In this document: positions 3,290-27,399 of the stretch, one piece after another | Layout: every line of letters begins with the position of its first letter | Numbering within the stretch: position 1 is the first letter of the stretch | Origin: Thiobacillus denitrificans | GTDB taxonomy: Bacteria; Pseudomonadota; Gammaproteobacteria; Burkholderiales; Thiobacillaceae | NCBI GenBank assembly: GCA_020723405.1 | Contig: DYIY01000011.1 | Coordinates: 1-64,000 of the forward strand | Length of the DNA: 64,000 nucleotides | Direction of reading: 5' to 3' | Notes under the pieces: model-generated | What the model saw: only the letters and a program-made list of their open reading frames with translations | The model's database searches: none | Told to the model about the DNA's origin: nothing | Translations under genes and position numbers: made by a program

Positions 3290-3781
3290 TCACGGCGGCT
3301 GGCCATCTCCGTCCAGGGATTCGACCAGGGCCGAGAGCACCGATGCGCCGCTGCCATCCTCGCTATCCAATGCATTCAGGATGGCAAGGTATTGGTTGGC
3401 CACAACCGGGTGATTGCGACGCAGGGCGATGAAGGCCATGGCCTTCAGGGCGAGTAGCGCTTGGCTCGCCTGGGGGGTGTTCCAGGCGGGAAGCAGGTTC
3501 CGCTGCCATAGGGCGGCATCGGGAGGCAGGCCGCATTGGCGAGCGGCTTCCGCCAGGGACCGGGCGGCGAAATCCTGGGCCTGATCAAAGCGCCGCTGGC
3601 GGTTGTAGAACTTGATGATGGCCCGGTACAGAGGCAGGGGGTCGGCCGCCTGGGTGCAGGCGTACTCGAGCAGAAAATCGCCTCTGTGGGGGTCCTGCCG
3701 GTAGCCGGCCATGGCCTGGTTGAGCAGGGCCTGGGCTTCGCTTTCGAGTTCCAGTTCGGCCGGGTCTGCCAGGTCAGTCAT
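3290..3781 (-). CDS. Uncharacterised helical protein, last gene of the nifN-nifX operon (163 aa)
   Basis: The product is soluble, acidic and almost wholly alpha-helical, with helix pairs that look like degenerate tetratricopeptide repeats (for example around residues 45-75, ADPLPLYRAIIKFYNRQRRF, and around 105-135). Its ATG at 3781 overlaps the 3' end of the SagB-type gene by 8 bases, which indicates translational coupling in the same operon. No catalytic motif is visible. It could be a partner or assembly protein for the flavin enzyme upstream, but this is inference from the overlap only. Confidence 0.7.
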   Translation of the reverse strand: MTDLADPAELELESEAQALLNQAMAGYRQDPHRGDFLLEYACTQAADPLPLYRAIIKFYNRQRRFDQAQDFAARSLAEAARQCGLPPDAALWQRNLLPAWNTPQASQALLALKAMAFIALRRNHPVVANQYLAILNALDSEDGSGASVLSALVESLDGDGQPP

Positions 3782-10446: not shown

Positions 10447-10462
10447 TGCAATCGGCATGCCA
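10447..10462 (-). promoter_or_regulatory. Sigma-54 promoter of nifN operon
   Basis: Minus strand reads TGGCATG CCGA TTGCA, an exact -24/-12 layout. The predicted transcription start is near 10436, about 98 bases before nifN. Confidence 0.85.
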
Positions 10463-10504
10463 GCGACAACTGCATGTTTATTTTGGATATTTTCCCTCCG
10501 GGCC

Positions 10505-10520
10505 TGTCTTGAAGACGACA
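10505..10520 (-). promoter_or_regulatory. NifA upstream activator sequence for nifN
   Basis: Perfect TGT-N10-ACA on the minus strand (TGTCGTCTTCAAGACA), centred about 77 bases upstream of the predicted start. Confidence 0.8.
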
Positions 10521-13432: not shown

Positions 13433-14398
13433 TCAGACGGAATAGGGCGAATCGATCCAGCGTTCCAGCAGGACCGCATCGGGCTCCGGCAGATAGTGGA
13501 AATCCTCCACGATGTCCTGCATCACCCCCTGGGCGATCTCCCTGGGCACCAGGGCACCGGCCACCAGGTGGAAGTACCAGGCAGCGGAATAGCCGGCGGC
13601 CCGGTCGAAGGCATGCAACTGCTCCGACAAATCCACGCCGCGCACGTCGGTGCGCCAATGGAAGGGCTTGAGACGGCGGGCCAGCAGGGACACCGGCGTG
13701 GCCGACATGACCGTATTGCGGTAGCGGTCCTTGTGTTCCCGCAGGGCCAGGATCCAGTAATCGCTGAAGTGTCCCCGGGCGGCGGCGCTGCTGGCCGCCC
13801 ACTCGGCCATGAAACGGCCGGCGGGCGCCAGTTCCCCCATGCCGGCGGGCAGCCGGGCGGCCACCAGGCGGATGTCGGTGAGGCGGCGGAAAAGATATCG
13901 GGGCGCGCCCACCGGCTGGGCATCCACCAGAGCCGGGACCAGGGGGTCGGTGAGTTCCTCCAGGTCGTTGGGTGGGGTGTCCGGATGGATCAGGCGGCGG
14001 TCCAGCACCTCTTGCAGTTCCTCCACCTCCAGTTGCAGGAAATCGGCCGGAGCCCGGCCGTAGGCGGCGACGAAATAATGGGTGCGGCCGGAATGGCGAG
14101 TGGTGAGCAGGTCGTCGCCGCCGTGGCGGTCCAGGAACTCGCCCATGTCGTCCTGGCAATCGGCCAGTTCAGCGTCGCACCAGGACACCAGATCTTCGGC
14201 CAGGCGGGTGCCGTCGGGGCGGATCACGCCGCCGGGCCGGTACCAGCCCCCCCGGGTCAGGGCGAAACGGAAGGTCTGGCCCGGCAGGATCCGCGCCACG
14301 GCTTCCATGAGGGCACTGTGGTGGGGCCGTGGCGGAGCGGCCTCGATCTCGGCTTGCAGCCGGCTCAGGGAAGCATCGTCGATGGGGCAGCCATTCAT
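13433..14398 (-). CDS. Uncharacterised protein paired with the LRV 4Fe-4S protein (321 aa)
   Basis: Family not recognised. The 321-residue soluble protein begins MNGCPIDDASLSRLQAEIEA and shows a mixed alpha/beta plan; noticeable stretches are LTRGGWYRPGGVIRPDG at about 50-65, LVPALVDAQPVGAPRYLFRR in the middle, and FHLVAGALVPREIAQGV near the end. There are two conserved-looking Cys near residues 74 and 80 (WCDAELADC). It starts 3 bases after the LRV gene, so both are probably translated together under the same NifA promoter. Role in nitrogen fixation is inferred only from regulation. Confidence 0.75.
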   Translation of the reverse strand: MNGCPIDDASLSRLQAEIEAAPPRPHHSALMEAVARILPGQTFRFALTRGGWYRPGGVIRPDGTRLAEDLVSWCDAELADCQDDMGEFLDRHGGDDLLTTRHSGRTHYFVAAYGRAPADFLQLEVEELQEVLDRRLIHPDTPPNDLEELTDPLVPALVDAQPVGAPRYLFRRLTDIRLVAARLPAGMGELAPAGRFMAEWAASSAAARGHFSDYWILALREHKDRYRNTVMSATPVSLLARRLKPFHWRTDVRGVDLSEQLHAFDRAAGYSAAWYFHLVAGALVPREIAQGVMQDIVEDFHYLPEPDAVLLERWIDSPYSV

Positions 14399-14401
14399 GG
14401 C

Positions 14402-15172
14402 CTAGTCCTCTGTTTGCAGAAATTCGGTCAAGCGCGCCCGGGCCCGTTCCCGGACATCCGGGTCCGAATCCTCCACCAGGGCGGCCACGGCATCAATAGG
14501 GGCATTGCCCGCCGCCCCCAACCGGACCCGCCACTCGGGATCGTGGAGCAGGGCGGCGGCATCTTCGGGCAACATGCGGGCGGCGACGATGGCCCGCACT
14601 TCCGGATCCGCATCGGCGGCCATGCGCTTCAGGGCAAAACCGGGCAGGCGGCGGGCCACTTCCTTGCGCACCTCCCGTTCCGGATCGTCGGTCATCCGGG
14701 TCAGCCGGCCGTGGGGCAGACGCTCGGCCACCCGCTGGCGGACCATGTAGTCCGGGTCGCTGATCAGCACTTCCAACTGCTCCGCCGGCAGGCGCGAAGC
14801 CACGGTGATGCGCACTTCCCGGTCCTGGTCCCGGGCCAGGGCGGCCAGGGCCTCGGGGGGCAGGCGCAGGGCAACCGCCCGGCGCACCACCTCGTCCGTA
14901 TCCCGGGCCAGGCTCAGGATGGCCTGCATGGGGGCATAGCGCACCGCGATGGCGCGCCGCTCCCAGAAATCGTCCTCCAGGCAGGATTCGGCGAACTCCG
15001 GATTGCGGCGCAGGAAGCGGTCGATCTGCCGGCCGCTCTGGGCCACCAGGCAGACGTCGCCGGGCACGCAACGGCCCGCCACCTTCAAGGTGTCCCGATG
15101 GGGACAGACGGTGCAATCGGCAAGGGGCACCTGGGTCAGATGGGTTCCGGGCCGGCGGCGATGGTCAGACAT
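14402..15172 (-). CDS. 4Fe-4S leucine-rich-repeat-variant (LRV) protein
   Basis: This matches the Azotobacter LRV protein, whose structure is a superhelix of 24-residue LRV repeats with an N-terminal 4Fe-4S cluster. The N-terminal ~65 residues contain four cysteines (DCTVCPHRDTLK, GRCVPGDVCLV) for the cluster; after that at least six ~24-residue repeats with VR..VA.RLP follow (for example EVRITVASRLPAEQLEVLI). In Azotobacter the gene lies near nif genes but has no known function. Start ATG at 15172 fits the family; the frame upstream is not supported. Confidence 0.88.
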   Translation of the reverse strand: MSDHRRRPGTHLTQVPLADCTVCPHRDTLKVAGRCVPGDVCLVAQSGRQIDRFLRRNPEFAESCLEDDFWERRAIAVRYAPMQAILSLARDTDEVVRRAVALRLPPEALAALARDQDREVRITVASRLPAEQLEVLISDPDYMVRQRVAERLPHGRLTRMTDDPEREVRKEVARRLPGFALKRMAADADPEVRAIVAARMLPEDAAALLHDPEWRVRLGAAGNAPIDAVAALVEDSDPDVRERARARLTEFLQTED

Positions 15173-15366: not shown

Positions 15367-15382
15367 TGCAAGCCCCATGCCA
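15367..15382 (-). promoter_or_regulatory. Sigma-54 promoter of LRV operon
   Basis: Minus strand TGGCATG GGGC TTGCA, exact -24/-12 spacing. It implies a leader of about 180 bases before the LRV start, longer than in the other nif units. The leader (15173-15356) holds a possible 58-codon frame starting at 15341 that overlaps the LRV start by 8 bases, but its ribosome-binding site is weak. Confidence 0.82.
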
Positions 15383-15477: not shown

Positions 15478-15493
15478 TGTCACAAAAGCGACA
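15478..15493 (-). promoter_or_regulatory. NifA upstream activator sequence for LRV operon
   Basis: TGT-N10-ACA (TGTCACAAAAGCGACA on the plus strand) about 130 bases upstream of the predicted start. It overlaps the last codons of the acetyltransferase gene. Confidence 0.75.
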
Positions 15494-15965
15494 GACTCCC
15501 AGGTTCCTCCAGGGTCTTGCGCAGCACCACCATGGCCGACGACTGGAATCCCAGGTGACGGTAGAAATCCAGGGCTGGCCGGTTGTCCTTGTCGGCCAGC
15601 AGGGTCACCCGGCTGAAACCCTGCTGTGCCGCCCAGGCCAGCACTTCCTCCACCAGCAGGCGGCCCAACCCCCGCCCCCGGGCGGTGCCGGAGACGATGA
15701 CGTCTTCCAGCAGCAGAACCCGGCCGCCCCGGGCCGTGCTGACGGTGATCAGGGCATTGGCCATGCCCAGGATCCCCTGCCCTTCCCGCAGCACGAACAA
15801 CTGTCCCAGGGCGGGGGTATCCAGGATCAGGGCCAACCCGGCCAACTGCCTGTCCCGGTCTGGAACGAAATCACTCTCCAGGGTGAACAGTTCGCTGAGC
15901 AGATCCGCCATGGCGGACAGGTCTTCGGGCCGGGCGGGCTCCACGCGTACCGATTCGCTCATCAT
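15480..15965 (-). CDS. GNAT-family N-acetyltransferase, NifA-regulon member
   Basis: The 161-residue protein is a complete GNAT domain. The acetyl-CoA loop is at about 96-107, GTARGRGLGRLL (Q/RxxGxG/A), after the strand GRVLLLEDVIVSG; the C-terminal part NRPALDFYRHLGFQSS is the usual last motif. Substrates of GNATs range from small molecules to protein amino groups and cannot be told here. The ATG at 15965 overlaps the stop of the AAA+ ATPase (ATGA), so both are one operon. The NifA site of the next unit lies in its 3' end. Confidence 0.85.
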   Translation of the reverse strand: MMSESVRVEPARPEDLSAMADLLSELFTLESDFVPDRDRQLAGLALILDTPALGQLFVLREGQGILGMANALITVSTARGGRVLLLEDVIVSGTARGRGLGRLLVEEVLAWAAQQGFSRVTLLADKDNRPALDFYRHLGFQSSAMVVLRKTLEEPGSLSLL

Positions 15966-17689
15966 GCCTCCCCATGGGCAAGAACCGGATTCTCCACGGG
16001 CAGACCCATGTCCAGCCCCCGGAAGATGGCGCAGCGGCGAAAGGCCTCCAGATCCGGCACCACGCCCTTCTGATGGCAGTATTTGCCCACCAGTTTGGCC
16101 AGGCCCTTGATGTCCCGGCCCGTGGCGCCGGGGAACAGTTCGGGCAAGCGGTCCAGCAGGTCCGCCGCCACGGGCAGGCCGAACTGTTCCGTCATCACCT
16201 GCCAGATGCGTTTTCGGGCCTCGGGGCCCGGGGGCTGGTATTTGATGAGGGCGATGCAGCGGGAGACGATGGCTTCGTCGATGTCGTCCACCCGGTTGGT
16301 GGTGAGGAACAGCAGACCGTTGAAGTATTCCAGCACCCGCAGGAACACGCCCACCACTGCGTTGGTGGTGATATTGTCGTCGCGGCGGCGGATGTACACG
16401 TCAGCCTCGTCGATGAGCATCACCGCGCCCCAGCGCTGGGCCCGGGTGAGCACCTCCTTGAGGGCGGTTTCCATGGTCGCCACGTTGAGGCCCAACTGGC
16501 CCGAGTGCACCCGGTACAGGGGCCGGCGGATGATCTCCGCGTAGACCTCGGCGGTGAGGGTCTTGCCCACCCCGGCGGGCCCGGCGCAGAGCACCGTGGT
16601 GCCACCGGACTTGCCGGCCACGATGTCGTCCATGAGCACGTCCATCTCGGCGGTGAGGATGTCGATGAGGTCCGTCTGTTCCTCCGGCAGCACCAGTTTC
16701 TGCTTGAGTTCCGGCTGATAGACGTAAGGCTCCAGGTCATGGACGTGGACCCACACGTAGTGGTGCAGGTCCATGTGGAACATGAGGATGTGGAAATGCA
16801 CCGGCAACTGGCTGAACAGGCCCTTGGGCAGTTCCGCCTGGACCGCCTCCGCCATTTCCTCCCCCTTGTAGCGCAGGCTCTTGGCGGCCCGGCGCAGGTA
16901 GCCGGCCAGGATGTCGCCGCTGGCCTCCAGGGCCAGGACCCGATCGCCCAGGATGGTTTCGTCGTTCACCAGCCGGGCCTGGCCGCCGCTGGAGGAGAGC
17001 ACCACCACCTCCTTGCGGGACCAGTCGGTATCGCGATGGGAGGCGGCCGGATTCTCCGCGTAGATACCGGTGCCCCGGCCCAGGAACTGGGCGCCGTAGC
17101 GGGCCCGCCAGTCGTAATAGCGTTCCGCCGTGGCATCGTAGCTTTGCAGCAACGCCGGCGTTTCCTTCAGGTAGCCCTTGGCCGCCAGGATCTGCCCCAG
17201 GGTGCGCCCGCCCAAGTCCCGGGGCAGGATCATCACGGTCACGTGGGCCAGGCGCCCCCGGGCATTGGCCTTGAGTTCGATGAGCACCCGGCCGGCTTCT
17301 TCCTCGGAGGCCGGGGTGAAGTCCAGACGGGTCACCACCCAGGCCATGGGTTTGCCGCTCACCGCCGCCGAAAACAGCCAACCCCGCCGGGTCCCCTCGG
17401 CCAGATAACGGGCCAGGGCCGGCACCAGGGGCTCCAGATCGTCGCCCGCGAAGCGCTGGCCGTCTTCCTTGAGGGCATTGTTCAGCGCCCGCAACTGGAT
17501 GGCCCGGACCTGCTGGTCCGCGTCGCCCTGGTCATACAGACTGCTGAGGAAGGCCAGTTCCGCATCGCCCATGCGGGCCAGGGACAACTCGGCGGCATTG
17601 CCCAGGCGCAACTGGGACTGGAGCTCGGCCAGGTGGGGAAAGGAGCCCACCAGGGCTTCCACGTGGGATCGTTCAATGCGCAACTTCAT
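15962..17689 (-). CDS. AAA+ ATPase in a NifA/sigma-54 operon (575 aa)
   Basis: The N-terminal ~330 residues are an unknown region with no known domain. The C-terminal third is a AAA+ module: Walker A GPAGVGKTLTAE near residue 370, Walker B AVMLIDEADVYI near 426, and sensor-1-like LLFLTTNRVDDIDEAIVSR. The domain resembles the FtsH/CDC48/Rubisco-activase class more than NtrC-type activators. Such ATPases remodel or activate protein complexes. Start is ATG 17689 (27 bases behind a sigma-54 start). Its regulation implies a role in fixation, perhaps remodelling a Nif protein; the target is unknown. Confidence 0.85.
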   Translation of the reverse strand: MKLRIERSHVEALVGSFPHLAELQSQLRLGNAAELSLARMGDAELAFLSSLYDQGDADQQVRAIQLRALNNALKEDGQRFAGDDLEPLVPALARYLAEGTRRGWLFSAAVSGKPMAWVVTRLDFTPASEEEAGRVLIELKANARGRLAHVTVMILPRDLGGRTLGQILAAKGYLKETPALLQSYDATAERYYDWRARYGAQFLGRGTGIYAENPAASHRDTDWSRKEVVVLSSSGGQARLVNDETILGDRVLALEASGDILAGYLRRAAKSLRYKGEEMAEAVQAELPKGLFSQLPVHFHILMFHMDLHHYVWVHVHDLEPYVYQPELKQKLVLPEEQTDLIDILTAEMDVLMDDIVAGKSGGTTVLCAGPAGVGKTLTAEVYAEIIRRPLYRVHSGQLGLNVATMETALKEVLTRAQRWGAVMLIDEADVYIRRRDDNITTNAVVGVFLRVLEYFNGLLFLTTNRVDDIDEAIVSRCIALIKYQPPGPEARKRIWQVMTEQFGLPVAADLLDRLPELFPGATGRDIKGLAKLVGKYCHQKGVVPDLEAFRRCAIFRGLDMGLPVENPVLAHGEA

Positions 17690-17726
17690 GGGGAATGGCT
17701 CCCGGACAGGCAGATTGGCCAGATAC

Positions 17727-17742
17727 AGCAAGATGCGGGCCA
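17727..17742 (-). promoter_or_regulatory. Sigma-54 promoter of AAA+ ATPase-GNAT operon
   Basis: Minus strand TGGCCCG CATC TTGCT. One base (C for A) differs from the best consensus; the -24 GG and -12 GC are intact. Predicted start near 17716, 27 bases before the ATG. Confidence 0.75.
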
Positions 17743-17815
17743 GACTTGCCGGGCGCGATCTCCCCTGGAAATACCGCCCAACCCCGGGTCAATCGCGCGG
17801 AAGGGAGGCCCTCCC

Positions 17816-17831
17816 TGTGGGTTTTGCGACA
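17816..17831 (-). promoter_or_regulatory. NifA upstream activator sequence for AAA+ ATPase-GNAT operon
   Basis: Perfect TGT-N10-ACA (plus strand TGTGGGTTTTGCGACA) about 108 bases upstream of the predicted transcription start. Confidence 0.75.
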
Positions 17832-18965: not shown

Positions 18966-19439
18966 TCAGGCCAGCTTCGCAACCGGGAAAAACCTCCCCA
19001 GCATCCGGTCCATCCAGGATGCCTCACGACGATCCATGAGCCGGGCAGCCAGGGCTGCCTTCACCTCCGGCACGTAGGCCATGTCATCCCGCTGGATGTG
19101 ATGGACCAGCCAACTGTAGAGCATGCCGTGGACCTGGGCCCCCACGTCTTCCCCGGCGTCATGCCGTTGCCGGTACTTCTCGACGCGCCGGGCGAACTGA
19201 TCGTGGACCGCTTTGTGGGGCACGGCCATGGAATAGCGGGCCTCCTCCTGCAAGGCTTCCTCGAAAGCCAGGTGGGAGAGGGTGTAATCAACCAGTTCAT
19301 CGAGTACCAGGCCCACGAAGTACCGATCTTGGCTGCCGATGGCTCCCTCCAGTTGATTGATGTAATCGGCGATGCGCCGGTGTTGCAGGTCGATGATTTC
19401 AATGCCGGTGTCGAAACTGCTGCGCCAGGTGAAGCTCAT
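18966..19439 (-). CDS. Bacteriohemerythrin (157 aa)
   Basis: A single hemerythrin domain with all di-iron ligands visible: DLQH near residue 19, HLAFEE (HxxxE), HKAVHDQF (HxxxH) and HHIQRDD (HxxxxD). Such proteins bind oxygen and in diazotrophs or methanotrophs may deliver or buffer it. Start is ATG 19439 with AAAAGGA upstream; the C-terminal tail beyond the domain (residues ~125-157) is basic. It is encoded downstream (by orientation) of the unassigned stretch 19440-19776 and is close to the NifA regulon genes, but I see no nif promoter. Confidence 0.9.
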   Translation of the reverse strand: MSFTWRSSFDTGIEIIDLQHRRIADYINQLEGAIGSQDRYFVGLVLDELVDYTLSHLAFEEALQEEARYSMAVPHKAVHDQFARRVEKYRQRHDAGEDVGAQVHGMLYSWLVHHIQRDDMAYVPEVKAALAARLMDRREASWMDRMLGRFFPVAKLA

Positions 19440-19776
19440 GTTCGCGGTCCTTTTCCCATACCCATGCCGCCCAGGGTTCGGGCTGGAACGTCCGTGGCCT
19501 CCCGTGGCGCCGCCAGGCATGCCTGGCACGGTGGGCCGGCATGGCTTTGACAGGACACACCTCCCCGGTGTGTGCGGCAAAATCGTTGTCGGCGGCCAGC
19601 TTATCGAGCCCGTGTTTCGCCAATGTGTCGGCGATCTGGAAAAACGGGCCCCCGCCCCGGGGCAGGGGGGCCCGGGACACGGCACCCGGGTACCTGTCGG
19701 ACTTGAAGGGAAATCGGCAGCAAATTCGCCGGCGCGGTCGATTCCCGGCCGATGCCCCTGCAATTCCGACATGCTT
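19440..19776. other. Intergenic stretch without confident gene
   Basis: About 337 bases between the hemerythrin and the TRAP genes. A 93-codon minus-strand frame (19399-19680) overlaps the hemerythrin start and has Lys/Ala-rich, protein-like segments (IADTLAKHGLDKLAADNDF) but no homologue I know; it may be a gene remnant. A perfect 7-bp stem ACACACC/GGTGTGT lies at 19555-19573. Confidence 0.35.
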
Positions 19777-21591
19777 CTAGTTCTGGAACAGACCAGGCAG
19801 CCAGGTGGACAGACCGGGCAGCAGGGCAATGCACAGGGCCCCGAGAATCATGGCCCCCACGGCGGGCAGGACCGAGGCGGCCACTTCCCCCAGGGGCTTC
19901 CTGAACAGGGCCGAGGCGAAATAAATGTTGAGACCGGCCGGGGGAAACAGGAAGGCGATCTCCAGGCTGGCCAGGAAGATCACTCCGAAGTGGACCGGGT
20001 CGATGCCGTAGGACAGGGCCACGGGCAACAGCAAGGGAACCAGCACCACCAACGCCGCGTAGATCTCCATGAGGGCGCCGGCCAGTAACAGAAACAGGGT
20101 GAGGGCCGACAGGAACACGTAGCGGTTGGGCAGCACCGCCCGGACCCACTCCACCATCTGGTCCGGAATGCCTGCATCCACCAGGAAGTTGGTGAGCCCC
20201 AGGGCCATGCCCAGGATGAGCATGATGCCGCCGATGATCTGGGCGGTTTCCACCAGGCTGGCCCCCAGCCCCTTCAGGTCCAGTTCCCGATGGGCCAGGG
20301 TCTGGGTGAGGATGGCGTAGGCGGCGGTCAGGGCCGCACTTTCCATGGGGGTGGCCAGGCCGCTCACCATGGCGCCGATGGCCACCGCCGGCGCCAGGAT
20401 CTCCCACTTGGCGGCCAGGATGGCCTGGCGACGGGAAACCACCGGCGCCGGCACCACCGGTCGTCCGGCAACGGCGCCGTTCCGGCCCAGGAATCCCCCG
20501 GCCAGGAGCAGGAAAGCCACCATCACCAGGGCCGGCAGCAGACCGGCCAGGAACATGGTGTTGATGGGAACCCGAGCGATGATGGCGTACATGATGAGGG
20601 GCACCGAAGGGGCCAGCAGCACCCCCAGGGCGCTGGCGCTGGTCACCAGGCCGATGCCCCGCCTTTCCGGGAATCCCGCCCGGGTGAGGAGGGGCAGCAA
20701 CAGGCCGCCCAGGGCCAGGATGGTGACCCCGCTGCCCCCGGTCAGGGCGGTGAAAAAGGAACACAACAGGGCGCCGGCCACGGCCGTGCCCAGGGCTCCG
20801 CCGCCGAACAGGGCGGTGAACAGGGTGCCCAGGCGGCCGGCCGCCCCGGTGCGGGAAAACACCAGACCCGCCAGGGTGAACAGGGGCAGGGCCGGCAGGG
20901 AGGGGTTCACGGTGATCTGGTAATGGCTCAGTGGCACCGCCGCCAGGGGCTGGCCCTCCATCCAGAACAGGGCCAGGGCCAGCCCGCCCAGCACGGCGAA
21001 GATGGGGGCGCCGCACAGCAGGATGACGCCCAACCCCAGGGCAAAGGGGAAGATGGGCAGGGTCGCGCCATCGAAATGGGCGGCGAACAGCCAGCCCGCC
21101 AGGGGCAGGGCCAGGGCGGTCAGACCACGCCAGGGCAGGGCGTCCACCAGGCGCCAACCCAGGCGGAACCCCAGAAGCAGGAATCCGGCCGGCATGGCCG
21201 CCTCCATGACCCAGCCGGGGAGGCCATAGGCCAGGGGACTCGCCATGGCCATTTCGCTGGCCACGAAGACCCAACTGGCCTGGGCCAGCATGCCGCTGAT
21301 CAGGGCCGAACCGGCCAGCGCCAGAAGCCGGGCGGATCGGGCCAGGGCCGGGTGGCCGGCGGCGGCCAGGCCGGCCCCCAGGGAGGTCAGGTGCCCGCCC
21401 CGCTCGGCCACCAGGGCGCCGAACATGGCCAGGATCAGGCCCAGGTGCTGCACCAGGGCCGGCCCGTTCTCCACCCCCCGGCCCAACAGGGGACGCGCCA
21501 CGATCTCGAGCAGGGGAATGAGGAGCATCAACGCCAGGGCCCCGCCGGCCAGACAGGCATCGAAACGAAGAAGGGCGCGCAAGGGGGCCAT
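19777..21591 (-). CDS. TRAP transporter fused small/large permease (DctQM)
   Basis: A ~604-residue membrane protein with about 16 hydrophobic helices. The first ~160 residues correspond to the small DctQ subunit (IPLLEIVARPLLGRG... ), the rest to the large DctM subunit with ALTGGSGVTILALGG and GIGLVTSASALGVLLAPSVP. The DctM half would translocate the solute, using Na+ gradients in known TRAP systems. Fusions of Q and M are known. Start chosen at ATG 21591 (an upstream TTG is also in frame). Solute is unknown. Confidence 0.9.
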   Translation of the reverse strand: MAPLRALLRFDACLAGGALALMLLIPLLEIVARPLLGRGVENGPALVQHLGLILAMFGALVAERGGHLTSLGAGLAAAGHPALARSARLLALAGSALISGMLAQASWVFVASEMAMASPLAYGLPGWVMEAAMPAGFLLLGFRLGWRLVDALPWRGLTALALPLAGWLFAAHFDGATLPIFPFALGLGVILLCGAPIFAVLGGLALALFWMEGQPLAAVPLSHYQITVNPSLPALPLFTLAGLVFSRTGAAGRLGTLFTALFGGGALGTAVAGALLCSFFTALTGGSGVTILALGGLLLPLLTRAGFPERRGIGLVTSASALGVLLAPSVPLIMYAIIARVPINTMFLAGLLPALVMVAFLLLAGGFLGRNGAVAGRPVVPAPVVSRRQAILAAKWEILAPAVAIGAMVSGLATPMESAALTAAYAILTQTLAHRELDLKGLGASLVETAQIIGGIMLILGMALGLTNFLVDAGIPDQMVEWVRAVLPNRYVFLSALTLFLLLAGALMEIYAALVVLVPLLLPVALSYGIDPVHFGVIFLASLEIAFLFPPAGLNIYFASALFRKPLGEVAASVLPAVGAMILGALCIALLPGLSTWLPGLFQN

Positions 21592-21649
21592 CAGCAACAA
21601 AACCTGCAGGGCGTGGACACGGATTCCCGGGACAGGGGCGGGGCGATCC

Positions 21650-22648
21650 TCAGGATTTGCCCTTGGCCGAACGATAGGTTTCCAGATGGCGCACCACTTC
21701 GTCGAAGGTGTCCGCCGGCACCAGGCGGCCGCGAATGCGCGGATACAGATCGTCGGCCAGCTTGCGCCAGGCCTTCATCTGCTCGGGGGTGGGCCGGGTC
21801 ACGGTGAGGCCCCGCTTCTTCATGGCCTCCACCGCCTCATCCACTTCCCTGCGGGCCTGGGCGCGCATGTTGTCGCCGGCCCGGGCGCCGGCCGCCTTCA
21901 CCGCCGCCTGGGCGGCCGGGTTCATCTCCTCCCAGGCCTTGCGGGTGATCACCAGGGCGCCCACCACCGGCGCCCAATTCAGGTCCAGCATGTGGGGCGC
22001 GCTGCTGTAGATCTGGGTGGCCAGGGCGAAATAGGGGGTGGAAGGTACGGCATTGATCATGCCCGTCTGGATGGCCGGCAGGATGTCCGCCACTTCCAGA
22101 GGAACGGGGGTGTAGCCCAGGCTTTTCATGATTTCGTGCTGGGCCGGCTCGGCGCCCCAGGCAAAGAACTTCATGCCGCGGAAATCGCCGGGAGTGGCCG
22201 CCGGCTGCTTGCTGAAGAAGCGCACCCAGCCCGCATCGCCCCAGGCCAGGATGACGAAGCCCTTGTCGAAGAATTTCTGCTCCATGTCGGCCCGCAGTTT
22301 CTCGCGGACGTGGTCCACCTCCTCCCAGTTGCGGAACATGAGGGGCATGAGTTGCAGGGCCGAAATACTGGGCTCGATGGTTTCCAGTCCGGCCACCGAC
22401 AACAGCCCGCCCTGCAACTGGCCGATGCGCATGCGCCGCACCATGTCCACTTCCCCCCCCTGGCTGCCATCGGGATAGATCAGCACCTTGCCGCCCCCCT
22501 GGGCCGTGCGCCAGGCCTCCCCCACCTCCAGCAACTGCCGGTGATAGAGGGAGTTCTTCGGCGCCAGGGTGCCGATGCGCAACGGGCCAGCGGCCAGAGC
22601 GGAGACGGAAAGCAGCACGAGGGAAAACAGCAGGACGATGGCACGCAT
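21650..22648 (-). CDS. TRAP transporter solute-binding protein (DctP family)
   Basis: Periplasmic partner of the TRAP permease. A signal peptide occupies residues ~1-20 (MRAIVLLFSLVLLSVSALAA). The mature protein shows DctP landmarks: PLRIGTLAPKNSLYHRQLLE, GEVDMVRRMRIGQLQGGLLS, the conserved Arg/Trp region PGDFRGMKFFAWGAEPAQH and AVPSTPYFALATQIY. DctP proteins of this group bind organic acids; the real ligand is not deducible. Coding order DctP-DctQM fits an operon together with the TatT-like gene upstream. Confidence 0.9.
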   Translation of the reverse strand: MRAIVLLFSLVLLSVSALAAGPLRIGTLAPKNSLYHRQLLEVGEAWRTAQGGGKVLIYPDGSQGGEVDMVRRMRIGQLQGGLLSVAGLETIEPSISALQLMPLMFRNWEEVDHVREKLRADMEQKFFDKGFVILAWGDAGWVRFFSKQPAATPGDFRGMKFFAWGAEPAQHEIMKSLGYTPVPLEVADILPAIQTGMINAVPSTPYFALATQIYSSAPHMLDLNWAPVVGALVITRKAWEEMNPAAQAAVKAAGARAGDNMRAQARREVDEAVEAMKKRGLTVTRPTPEQMKAWRKLADDLYPRIRGRLVPADTFDEVVRHLETYRSAKGKS

Positions 22649-22673
22649 GGCGTCAGGTTCCAGGAGAAAGTGT

Positions 22674-23558
22674 TCAGAACAGGTCGGCGGATTTTTCCAG
22701 CAGCCAGGCCGCCCGGCGGCGCATCACCTGGTCTTGCAGGGACAGGGGGGCGTCGGTCACGGGCAGGGACAGGGCCTGGTTCAGCAGGCCTTCAAAGGCA
22801 TCCCGATCCCCTGCCGGCAAGGCCACGCCTTCGGCCTTGGCCACCAGGGCCCCGGGGCTCCGGCCGCCGGATTGGGCGATGGCCTGGTCGAACCAGGCCA
22901 GGGCCTGGGCTCGGCTGCCTCCGGGCCGGGCCCCTTCGAAGGTGGCCAGCAGGCCGGTGAGGCTGCCTCGGCCCCAGGCCGGGTCCGACTGCCAGGCCAG
23001 TCTGGCCAGCCGGGCAGCCAGGGGCAGGTCGGCCACCACCTCCGGATTGTCCTTGCTGAGGGAAATCCAGCCACCCCAGGCGGCGGCCGCCCAATAGGCC
23101 AGACCCACTTCGCTTTGCCCCAGGGCTGGCCAGCCCTCGGGGGGGCCGGCCAGGGCCCGGAGCAGACCCGGGTGGGCCTGCTCCAGCGCCCCCATGGCGT
23201 GGTTCCGGGCCCGTCGATAGAGCCGGGCCGCCCGCTGGCGCAGGCGTTCCGCCTCGGCCAGGTTCCGTTCCTCCACCCGCTCGGCCTCAAAGGCCACGAA
23301 GGCATAGGCGTACTGGGTGAAACCGGCGGCCACCGATTCCGCCAGGGCCAGATGGCCGGGTTGTTCTCCCAGCACCGATTCCGAAAGCTTGAGATAGAAG
23401 GCGCTGGCCTCCCGGGCCAGCTCCAGATCCTCTTCCGTGGACTGGCCCTGGGCCGCCAGGCCATCCGCCAGGCGTTCCATGACCATCTGACGCGGCGAAC
23501 AACCGGCCAGGGCCATCATGCCCAGGACGCACGCCGCACCACCCAGCCCAACTTTCAT
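22674..23558 (-). CDS. TRAP-associated lipoprotein (TatT family)
   Basis: 294-residue protein with a lipoprotein signal (MKVGLGGAACVLGMMALAGC, Cys about residue 20). The rest is an all-helical TPR-like domain (segments AAGFTQYAYAFVAFEAERVEER, AERLRQRAARLYRRAR). This is the T component (TatT) that forms a trimeric chamber in some bacterial TRAP systems and hands ligand to the DctP protein. Start ATG at 23558, with a GTG one codon before. First gene of the TRAP operon; downstream order T-P-QM. Confidence 0.82.
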   Translation of the reverse strand: MKVGLGGAACVLGMMALAGCSPRQMVMERLADGLAAQGQSTEEDLELAREASAFYLKLSESVLGEQPGHLALAESVAAGFTQYAYAFVAFEAERVEERNLAEAERLRQRAARLYRRARNHAMGALEQAHPGLLRALAGPPEGWPALGQSEVGLAYWAAAAWGGWISLSKDNPEVVADLPLAARLARLAWQSDPAWGRGSLTGLLATFEGARPGGSRAQALAWFDQAIAQSGGRSPGALVAKAEGVALPAGDRDAFEGLLNQALSLPVTDAPLSLQDQVMRRRAAWLLEKSADLF

Positions 23559-24055: not shown

Positions 24056-25129
24056 TCAGCCCACCAGCGCCACCGCCTTGATCTGGGCGTACACCAGTTG
24101 TCCCGGGGCCAGGGCCAGAGTCTGGGCCGAACGCCTGGTGAGCCGGGCCACCAGGGGCGAGCCGCCCACGTTGAGGCGCACCAGGGCCAGGGCCGGGTGG
24201 GCGTCGTCGGCGATTTCCGCCACGGCGGCGGGCAGGGTGTTGAGGATGCTGGTGCCGCTGTGCCGGGTGAGGGCCAGGCTCACGTCCCGGGCCAGGATGC
24301 GCACCCGGACGTGGTGGCCGACGGCGTGCCCGCCATCGCGTACCCAGACGCTGCCCCCGGGGAAGGCCACCCGGGCCAGATGCCAGGCCGGGTCCCGTTC
24401 TTCCACCACGGCATCGAGCACCACCCCGGCGTCTTCCCCCAGACGGATGGGCAGGTCCAGGCGGGCCAGGGTATCGGTGATGGGGCCGGCGGCCACCACC
24501 CGGCCAGCGTCCATGACCACGATGTGATCGGCCAGGCGGGCCACTTCGTCGGGTGCGTGGCTGACGTAGAGGATGGGGATGTCCAGTTCGTCGTGGAGCC
24601 GCTCCAGATAGGGCAGGATTTCCTGCTTGCGGGCCAGATCCAGGGCGGAAAGGGGCTCGTCCATGAGCAGAATGCGGGGGCTCACGGCCAGGGCCCGGGC
24701 CATGCCGACCCGTTGCCGCTCACCGCCGGACAGGCGGTCCGGCTTGCGTTCCAGCAGGTGGCCGATGCCCAGGAGTTCGATGGCCTGGTCCAGGCTCACC
24801 CGGCGCGTTGGGGCGGCCACCCGCTTCAGGCCGAATTGCAGGTTGCGCCGCACCGTGAGGTGGGGGAACAGGTTCGCTTCCTGGAACACGTAGCCCAATG
24901 GGCGGCGGTGAGTGGGCAGAAAGTCGCCGCCCGACTGCCAGGTGTCGCCATTGACGCGCAACTGGCCGCCGGGGGCCCGCTCCAGGCCGGCGATGAGACG
25001 CAGCAGGGTGGTCTTGCCGCTGCCCGAGGCGCCGAACAGGGCGGTGACGCCCCGGCCGGGCAGCTCCAGATCCACGTCCAGGCTGAAGCCGGAGCGGACC
25101 AGGTGAAAGCGGGCCTGGATGCCGGTCAC
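24056..25129 (-). CDS. modC: Molybdate ABC transporter ATP-binding protein
   Basis: ModC energises molybdate import. ABC motifs: Walker [13 protein letters not shown] near residue 40, signature [15 protein letters not shown] near 135, Walker [13 protein letters not shown], and the H-loop [13 protein letters not shown]-terminal Mo-binding TOBE domain follows ([15 protein letters not shown]). Start is GTG 25129, overlapping the modB stop (GTGA), so 357 aa. Molybdate supply is needed for FeMo-co. Part of the order modE-modA-modB-modC. Confidence 0.95.
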
Positions 25130-25800
25130 TTGCGCCTCCCCGTGGGATTGAGGGTGTAGAGCACCAGCAGCACCAGGAAGGAGAACACCACCATGCCCGC
25201 CGCCAGACCGTGGGCCTGGGCGTATTCCATGGCCTCCACGTGGTCGTAGATCTGCACCGAGACCACCCGGGTTTCGTTGGGGATGTTGCCGCCGATCATC
25301 AGCACCACGCCGAATTCCCCCACGGTGTGGGCGAAGCCCAGGACGGTGGCGGTGAGATAGCCGGGCCGGGCCAGGGGCAGAACCACGCTGAAGAAGGCAT
25401 CCAGGGGAGAAGCCCGCAGAGTGGCGGCCGCCTCCAGGGGCTTGTCGCCCATGGCCTCGAAGGCGTTCTGCAGGGGCTGCACCACGAAGGGCAGGGAATA
25501 GAACACCGAGGCCACCACCAGGCCGGCGAAGGTGAAGGGCAACAGGCCCAGGCCCAGGGCCTGGGTGAGCTGGCCGCCCGGACCGTTGGGCCCCAGGGCC
25601 ACCAGCAGATAGAAGCCGATGACCGTGGGGGGCAGGACGATGGGCAGGGCCACCAGGGCGCCCACCGGCCCCTTCCACCAGGAGCGGGTGCGGGCCAGCC
25701 ACCAGGCGATGGGGGTGCCCAGCACCAGCAGCAGGGACGTGGTGACGCCGGCCAGCTTCAGGGTGAGCCAGACGGCGGCGAGATCGGTGCTTTCAAGCAT
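25126..25800 (-). CDS. modB: Molybdate ABC transporter permease
   Basis: 224-residue inner-membrane protein with five helices. Typical ModB elements are [21 protein letters not shown] near the start, [15 protein letters not shown], and the EAA loop [20 protein letters not shown]. It forms the channel for molybdate with ModC and receives the ion from ModA. Overlaps modC by 4 bases; 12 bases separate it from modA. Confidence 0.95.
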
Positions 25801-25812
25801 GGCGGGCGCGAA

Positions 25813-26604
<792 letters not shown>

Positions 26605-27399
26605 TCAGGCGTTGACGGCCAGGATGATATGGGAAGCCTTGATCAGGGCGCACGCCCGGCTGCCCGGTTGCAGCCCCATTTCCTGGGTGCTGGCATGGGT
26701 GACGATGGCGGCCACGGTCTTGCCGCCGGGCAGTTCGATGATGACTTCGTCGTTGACGGCGCCTTCCAGGCAGCGCACCACGGTGCCGCACAGGCGGTTG
26801 CGGGCACTGGTTTTCAAGGGGGTGTCGTTGGTGAGGATGACCCAGGGGGCCTTGATCAGGGCATAGGCCTCAATGCCGGGCTTGAGACCCAGGTGCTCCA
26901 CGCTGTCCTGGGTGATCATGGCCACGAGTTCGTCGCCTCCGCCGATGTCGAGCACCACTTCGGCGTTGACGGGGCCGCTCTTGACGGCCTTCACCTGGCC
27001 GAGGAACTGGTTGCGGGCACTGGTCTGCATATCAAATCTCCTGATGACACGGTAATACTGATCGAAGTCGTCCATGATGCGGTTCAGGTGGGACAGCACC
27101 CTTTCACGTTCCTTTTCCAGACGACGGTAGGCGGCCACGATGCGCCGGCCGTATTCGGTGAGCAGCGTGCCGCCGCCATGCCTGCCGCCGGGCTGGCGGG
27201 CCACCACCGCCTGTTCGGACAGGTTGTTGATGGCTTCCACCGCCTGCCAGGCGGCCTTGTAGCTCATGCCCATGGCATTGGCGGCGGCACTGATGGAACC
27301 GGAGGCGTCGATGCGCTCCAGCAGTTCCAGATGGTCCCAGCGTCGGCCCCGGCCCAGGGCGGCCAGGGGCAGGCTGTTGGCAGTGGCGGATGGGGTCAT
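26605..27399 (-). CDS. modE: Molybdate-responsive regulator ModE
   Basis: The N-terminal ~115 residues are a winged-helix DNA-binding domain (RRWDHLELLERIDASGSISAAA, MGMSYKAAWQAVEAINNL). The C-terminal part contains two TOBE/Mop domains (TSARNQFLGQVKAVKSGPVN and TSARNRLCGTVVRCLEGAVN), each able to bind molybdate. When molybdate-bound, ModE represses mod transport genes. ATG at 27399 gives the usual start; the frame beyond overlaps its own operator. First gene of the modEABC unit. Confidence 0.95.
   Translation of the reverse strand: MTPSATANSLPLAALGRGRRWDHLELLERIDASGSISAAANAMGMSYKAAWQAVEAINNLSEQAVVARQPGGRHGGGTLLTEYGRRIVAAYRRLEKERERVLSHLNRIMDDFDQYYRVIRRFDMQTSARNQFLGQVKAVKSGPVNAEVVLDIGGGDELVAMITQDSVEHLGLKPGIEAYALIKAPWVILTNDTPLKTSARNRLCGTVVRCLEGAVNDEVIIELPGGKTVAAIVTHASTQEMGLQPGSRACALIKASHIILAVNA

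Follow-up and report, generated by a model that had tools for sequence, protein, structure and literature searches.

A number of AAA ATPases are each dedicated to a single metabolic enzyme, as is the case with Rubisco activase/CbbX and NorQ/CbbQ, and an AAA+ protein termed ClpX-nif is found in Azotobacter nif clusters. Here we describe a further AAA ATPase of 575 amino acids that, to our knowledge, is not included in the usual lists of nif genes. It is encoded at 15962..17689 on the complementary strand of a 64,000-nucleotide stretch of Thiobacillus denitrificans DNA (contig DYIY01000011.1, positions 1 to 64,000), hereafter the window, in which profile and domain matches define a surrounding nif cluster with nifE, nifN, nifD, nifZ, DUF269, ferredoxin genes and mod-type genes, together with genes that from their position we take to be nifH and nifK. 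We find that the ATPase belongs to a clade that is tied to nif genomes and is frequently preceded by NifA and sigma-54 sites, and we conclude, with a probability of roughly 0.6, that it is a nif-dedicated accessory protein, induced by NifA and sigma-54, that remodels a protein of nitrogenase or of its assembly line. A gene with similar control has been reported in Azoarcus sp. BH72, where the microarray study of Sarkar and Reinhold-Hurek (PMC3916325) places azo3791, a conserved hypothetical ATPase encoded outside the nif cluster, among eight genes that have sites for both RpoN and NifA and are expressed in response to N2 fixation and NifA. The window ATPase shares with azo3791 the presence of NifA and RpoN sites. 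In the portions of that paper available to us azo3791 is simply termed a conserved hypothetical ATPase, and neither a family nor nif co-occurrence nor a mutant is described.

The distribution of the ATPase was analyzed in four genome sets, which overlap in part (for example, L033 = G002, L034 = G021, L036 = G007 and L051 = G010), and in all four it is restricted to genomes with nif genes with a single exception that is discussed below. Six of the 61 relatives of the window genome, its own genome included, carry the ATPase (one of them, G033, as a remnant) and all six are within the 12 genomes with nifD over the cut-off; when the own genome is excluded, the ATPase is present in 5 of 11 nifD-positive genomes (one remnant) versus 0 of 49 others. 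A sample of 369 genomes from the class contains eight full-length orthologues (E < 1e-200), all in the 32 nifD-positive genomes. Without the own genome this amounts to 7 of 31 nifD-positive versus 0 of 337 nifD-negative genomes (Fisher p = 1.5e-8, a value that, like the p value below, ignores kinship), which bears out the original prediction that the ATPase is tied to nitrogen fixation. A ninth match in this sample, in G299, is a partial paralogue of 48% identity from a genome without a nifD match. In the family of Zoogloea oleivorans (G074), 29 of 249 genomes carry the nif-clade gene, two of which were kept as fragments (G543, G593); 27 of these 29 carriers are nifD-positive at 1e-120, compared with 108 of all 249 genomes (p = 3.4e-9), and the nifD-family matches of the remaining two carriers are weaker. 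Five additional genomes of this family (G539, G545, G596, G600 and G637) have a gene matching residues ~287-562 at 54-57% that was set aside as a paralogue, and none of the five has a nifD-family match at 1e-3. Lastly, among 79 carrier genomes of the best 80 loci described below (L088 left out), 78 have a nifD-family match at 1e-3, 66 of them over the curated cut-off. A link with NifU-type Fe-S assembly was considered and rejected, as NifU is over its cut-off in 20 of the 32 nifD-positive genomes and in 6 of the 8 ATPase carriers, with no clear association.

When one genome per species was scanned, 255 relatives of the ATPase were confirmed, and the 80 best loci, at 65-80% identity, were retained. 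These best 80 of 255 include Dechloromonas, Azonexus, Zoogloea, Methylococcus, Methylobacter, Derxia, Ferrovum, Methylocella and others. Tree and promoter work retained 76 of the 80 loci, omitting L027, which is cut at a contig start, and L048, L053 and L058, which have short or broken frames. In a quick tree of 116 rows (108 different sequences), with long branches among the outgroups, the 105 nif-clade rows are set apart on a branch 4.08 long with a Shimodaira-Hasegawa-like approximate likelihood ratio test (SH-aLRT) value of 100. Additionally, 44 positions are at least 97% conserved in the nif clade but at most 20% conserved in 11 distant rows, and residues R102, D123, W194, P214, H218, K226 and V403, which are among these positions, are at the aligned place in none of the 11. 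The distant relatives are mostly 33-42% identical to the ATPase and are found on plasmids and in the jumbo phages AR9 and PBS1. They are homologous to it across both the N-terminal region and the AAA module (PHROG 29662 matches residues 43-559, E 3.4e-98), but in the nine annotated regions that were examined none of the named genes is a nif gene. Among plasmids, 291 records match the ATPase; coverage of the query reaches 80% or more in 146 of these, including one nif-clade copy at 70% identity. Within the nif clade the window ATPase is nearest to copies from Gallionellaceae and Parasulfuritortus (79-80% identity), with copies from its own genus at 70-73%. The AAA fold is already known, and the new part is this nif-dedicated clade.

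Control by NifA is indicated by two sites upstream of the gene, a sigma-54 -24/-12 box, TGGCCCGCATCTTGCT, at 17727..17742 and a NifA upstream activating sequence (UAS), TGT-N10-ACA, at 17816..17831, both on the complementary strand. The sites are 73 bp apart and the box starts 53 bp upstream of the ATG; the open reading frame called mechanically (15962-17731) starts at a TTG within this promoter, while the ATG at 17689 yields the protein of 575 residues. Both sites had been proposed in the original prediction. The strict sigma-54 box stands up well, with five in the window versus 0.21 expected. The NifA motif is confirmed as well and is weak evidence alone, with 11 in the window versus 6.5 expected, a number reached by 8 of 100 shuffles; its pairing with the box is strong, since four UAS/sigma-54 pairs with a gap of 25-200 bp occur in the window versus a mean of 0.007 in 300 Markov-1 sequences, none of which reaches four. 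Thus, at the level of sequence sites, the ATPase gene has the motif arrangement of a NifA regulon member. The other three pairs are upstream of an LRV repeat gene, nifE and nifN. As a separate observation, the pair before nifN (10447-10520) is additional to nifE's own.

The same arrangement recurs before many orthologues. The box TGGCCCGCATCTTGC is common to the window ATPase and the orthologues L026 and L028 among the Gallionellaceae/Parasulfuritortus copies, and the four full congeneric orthologues have TGGC-N8-TGC between -96 and -107 and TGT-N10-ACA between -200 and -225. For a systematic comparison we scored 75 loci (L072, with fewer than 260 bases upstream, was dropped) for a NifA site at -260 to -90 and for a sigma-54-like box with at least 9 of 12 matches and GG and GC fixed, using as controls 1101 genes of these loci that encode at least 100 amino acids and are separated from the ATPase start by more than 400 bp, nif genes included. 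Counted as sequences and not as independent events, a NifA site is upstream of 38 of 75 orthologues versus 62 of 1101 control genes, a sigma-54-like box upstream of 41 of 75 versus 98 of 1101, and both upstream of 33 of 75 versus 28 of 1101. When a nif flank is defined as a nifE, nifN, nifH, nifD, nifK, nifB or DUF269 gene within 10 kb, the pair is present in 32 of 63 copies outside nif flanks versus 1 of 12 inside, and the other 31 of the 63 have no pair by this strict test. The original prediction had considered that the genes might in most relatives lie outside nif loci without NifA sites; for the ATPase this is not what we observe, as 32 of 63 such copies have the pair and nearly all carriers are nif-positive. 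By lineage, the pair is found in 11 of 11 Azonexaceae, 2 of 8 Zoogloeaceae and 1 of 15 Methylococcaceae copies; the Gallionellaceae (0 of 3) have strong sigma-54 boxes with no exact UAS. It is also found before the copies in L147/L148, L149, L153 and L154, and no such pair is found in L150-L152.

Expression data are available through a probable orthologue. The A. olearius-like genome G532 has an orthologue at 4.238 Mb that is 69% identical to the window protein, with a UAS at -157 and a sigma-54 box, TGGCACCAATTCTGCT, at -68. It is located between uptake hydrogenase genes and hypA, hypB, hypF, hypD and an NtrC-type regulator gene. Among seven genomes tested, only G532 matches the azo0804 primer of PMC3916325 (one mismatch, at 901,870). 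According to the same paper, hoxB is azo3807, 16 locus numbers from azo3791, and at the place expected for hoxB G532 has a second hydrogenase small-subunit homologue that scores below the family cut-off. Because of the primer match and the position in the hydrogenase cluster near hoxB, with the intervening genes not all counted, the G532 gene is very probably azo3791, and N2- and NifA-dependent expression of the ATPase is supported, by way of this probable orthologue, by the microarray study (PMC3916325). The string azo379 does not occur in the main text of PMC9769520.

The protein itself has a classical AAA module (~340-560) preceded by an N-terminal region (residues 1 to ~330). Pfam family PF00004 matches residues 366-479 (E 9e-16, 59 bits versus a gathering score of 21.2), and the Walker A (GPAGVGKT, 370-377) and Walker B (MLIDEAD, 424-430) motifs that had been read from the sequence at the outset are both located, together with a sensor Asn and an Arg finger, the motifs and residue roles being named as is usual for the family. 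Residues K376, D427, E428, N465, R477 and R525 are conserved in at least 97% of the nif clade and at least 80% of the distant relatives. The N-terminal region was likewise correctly singled out as uncharacterized, as residues 1-330 match no Pfam or NCBIfam family above curated cut-offs. A structure model has a predicted local distance difference test (pLDDT) score of mostly 80-93 across residues 1-200; in the full-length model the AAA core is poorly predicted (residues 324-403 and 409-485 below 50), and we draw no conclusion from that part. In a single structure comparison, whose matches were filled by the AAA lid (484-560), no solved fold surfaced for the N-terminal region, and matches in a sequence search of the PDB are restricted to the AAA module.

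The ATPase resembles Cdc48/VAT, Rix7, the Drg1/AFG2 modules and FtsH in the sequence of its AAA core and in the fold of its lid, but differs from this group in having one AAA module, no HExxH and no aromatic pore-loop residue. Membership in the FtsH metalloproteases was rejected since no HExxH follows the AAA module; this motif is absent from the whole protein, which stops 15 residues past position 560. A classical AAA unfoldase has an aromatic-hydrophobic-Gly pore loop 1, and the corresponding loop of the ATPase departs from this pattern, with a profile alignment pairing LNVA (401-404) with KWVG of VAT D2 and thus leaving no aromatic residue. The anti-phage ATPase IteA/IetA was rejected as well, with 34 bits over residues 329-556 versus an NCBIfam equivalog cut-off of 510 bits, and matches to PADLOC IetA models are confined to the AAA part. 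The score against ClpX is 10 bits versus a cut-off of 359. The likeness to Rubisco activase/CbbX and NorQ/CbbQ is an idea only and we claim no homology.

The genomic position of the orthologues varies considerably. Flanks of the 80 loci were inspected up to 10 kb, with some contigs being short, and neighbor counts that depend on gene calling are rough, as this missed the ATPase gene in 5 of 80 loci and mis-stranded some genes in GC-rich loci. In 68 of 80 loci none of seven strict nif genes was found in the flanks. Other copies are embedded in nif regions. For example, in seven Methylococcaceae loci (L083-L086, L094, L098 and L099) the ATPase is co-oriented behind nif-cluster genes (nifX, DUF269, ferredoxin and others), in most cases with nifN and nifE further upstream on the same strand; the next called gene is 136-423 bp away, which leaves a single operon unproved. 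In G511, G705 and G684 the gene is flanked by nifHDK and nifENX and is on the strand opposite to them, and a Methylococcus plasmid has it as the last gene of a run comprising iscS, iscU, iscA, hscBA, fdx, nifV, nifW, grxD and bolA.

In the window the ATPase gene is followed by a gene for a GNAT N-acetyltransferase of 161 amino acids (15480..15965, complementary strand; PF00583, Acetyltransf_1, E 3.3e-17, plus other GNAT models), and the predicted overlap of the two genes is confirmed, as the GNAT ATG lies over the ATPase stop codon (ATGA). The original prediction had proposed that the two proteins jointly form a module for post-translational control or repair, and it had suggested searching other nif islands for the same gene pair. 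This overlap, the single upstream NifA/sigma-54 pair and the presence of both genes on a nifD-bearing contig in G010 and G033 speak for such a module; it is nevertheless very improbable, as the pair is not conserved, with no GNAT homologue in any of the 80 ATPase loci (tblastn, 1e-8), and the GNAT gene accompanies modC instead. GNAT matches at 1e-12 are present in 12 of 61 relatives, own genome included. The closest are in G010 (68%), G030 (66%), G060 (58%) and G033 (broken, 60-62%), with matches of 41-47% in G004, G007, G017, G019, G021, G037 and G059, that of G007 being on a nifD-bearing contig. The GNAT gene is directly after modC in G060, G030 and G033; in G010 the two genes share a strand and are 2.3 kb apart. 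The nif region of G060 reads modA-modB-modC-GNAT-LRV-p321-nifE and has no ATPase orthologue, and G030 has nif-cluster gene fragments with no nifD match. Thus, the mod genes are likely ancestral neighbors of the GNAT gene, which is therefore probably an accidental neighbor of the ATPase in the window, where modEABC (24056-27399) is parted from the GNAT gene by a stretch with TRAP transporter genes, hemerythrin and the ATPase. Because the window ATPase is closest to copies from other lineages and not to those of its own genus, it probably arrived separately within the stretch that splits modC from GNAT, and insertion is the most likely origin of the pair.

Three other explanations were considered. 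One is that the ATPase is induced with nitrogenase and serves a neighboring diazotrophic, low-oxygen process, such as uptake hydrogenase maturation or metal/sulfur supply. The location inside a hydrogenase gene cluster in G532, the only genome in which hydrogenase genes were looked for by name, and the rhodanese, glutaredoxin, BolA and Mop-like genes (the last name being our assumption) that adjoin in other lineages are consistent with this, but other copies are found within runs of nif genes or flanked by nifHDK and nifEN, and we regard this explanation as rather unlikely. A role as the unfoldase of a pathway that degrades damaged Nif proteins with a separate peptidase is unlikely too: its AAA module is like that of Cdc48-type proteins in sequence, its lid is of the FtsH/Vps4/RuvBL type in fold, and the PBS1 and AR9 relatives are annotated as FtsH-like or ATP-dependent protease, whereas the ATPase has no HExxH, only 15 residues past position 560 and no aromatic pore-loop residue. 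Finally, a mobile-element function in nucleoprotein disassembly or counter-defense may have been captured by the NifA regulon, in which case the targets of the ATPase would be DNA-bound complexes instead of Nif enzymes. The relatives on plasmids and in jumbo phages, one of which is beside ParA/ParB genes, and the weak similarity to IetA defense ATPases point in this direction; we consider it improbable given that the clade is tied to nif genomes and NifA-type sites and that its own conserved residues are absent from the plasmid and phage relatives.

The reading that we prefer is that of an accessory protein that remodels a Nif protein. NifA and sigma-54 would switch on the ATPase with nitrogen fixation, either via its own promoter or within a nif gene run. 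The protein, with one AAA module, would form an AAA ring, its conserved N-terminal region may recognize a Nif protein or complex, and ATP would be used to remodel, disassemble or reactivate this target, in the manner of an activase or chaperone rather than a protease. Disassembly or activation is favored over degradation because the protease motif and the aromatic pore residue are missing. A more specific version, which we advance tentatively, is that a dedicated nitrogenase activase was recruited from a family of plasmid and phage ATPases and retained in Beta-, Gamma- and Alphaproteobacteria, where it would remodel a component of nitrogenase or a scaffold of its assembly and so return the enzyme to activity following Fe, Mo or oxygen stress. 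Several points weigh against the preferred reading. The ATPase is not a core nif gene, as 24 of the 32 nifD-positive genomes of the class sample are without it and the G033 copy is a remnant without Walker A. The carrier genome G139, a metagenome-assembled genome whose completeness is not established, shows no nifD match. By the test used, the promoter pair is missing in 14 of 15 Methylococcaceae, 6 of 8 Zoogloeaceae, 3 of 3 Gallionellaceae, 2 of 2 Ferrovaceae and 5 of 5 alphaproteobacterial copies. Because the nine annotated regions of full-length distant relatives (33-42%) name no nif gene, the basic biochemical function is not nif-specific, and since position 402 is Asn in place of the aromatic residue of aligned Cdc48-type proteins, classical threading is doubtful as judged from this alignment. 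Additionally, the identity of azo3791 with the G532 gene is circumstantial, and no azo3791 mutant was found in the literature searched.

Other features of the window and of the orthologous loci deserve mention. Downstream of the ATPase-GNAT genes on the same complementary strand is a separate unit encoding an LRV repeat protein with an LRV_FeS domain (14402..15172), which has its own sigma-54 box (15367..15382) and NifA site (15478..15493), the latter overlapping the end of the GNAT gene. Next to it, at 13433-14398, is a gene for a 321-residue protein (p321) for which neither Pfam nor NCBIfam gives a match above cut-off; in G060 it is kept adjoining LRV and close to nifE, and further homologues are in L049 and L084. 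On the other side, hemerythrin and tripartite ATP-independent periplasmic (TRAP) transporter genes (DctQM, DctP, TAtT) at 18966-23486 separate the ATPase gene from a set of molybdate uptake genes on the complementary strand that, from their domains, we take to be modC, modB, modA and modE-like (24056..27399). The modC-GNAT adjacency in three relatives (L162, L163 and L025) ties an N-acetyltransferase to such genes. In G033 (L025, 10264-13142) the ATPase remnant has lost Walker A through an internal deletion that is in frame, and the GNAT gene is in broken frames. Within the nif cluster, a protein without a Pfam match is encoded at 3290-3781; one homologue has a sub-threshold TPR match, and homologues are in the flanks of 25 of 80 ATPase loci, many outside nif clusters. 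A small family, c24 (95-187 amino acids, motif LKILD.KCKM; one member scanned, with no Pfam match), is near the ATPase gene in 14 of 80 loci, within 200 bp in nine (L026, L029, L032, L033, L039, L040, L042, L043, L071, L093 and L104 are among the 14, L094 is weak, and L142 has it as well). Homology of c24 with the presumed Mop-like gene (cluster c97, three sequences) is unsupported. Several Methylococcaceae loci have rhodanese, ankyrin and DIMCO_N/Nitro_FeMo-Co genes downstream of the ATPase. The recurrent TPR-like protein, c24 with its KCKM motif and rhodanese are candidate substrates or partners of the ATPase.

Gene lists for engineering nitrogen fixation derive from few model organisms, some of which may lack the ATPase gene. 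A NifA-controlled motor in many proteobacterial diazotrophs, methanotrophs included, points to a maintenance or assembly step of which we found no description in the literature searched, where the only relevant item recognized was azo3791 in PMC3916325. If a dedicated activase is indeed involved, it would be the nitrogenase counterpart of what Rubisco activase is for Rubisco. As a single gene, it would allow the need of nitrogenase or its assembly line for ATP-driven remodeling to be tested concretely.

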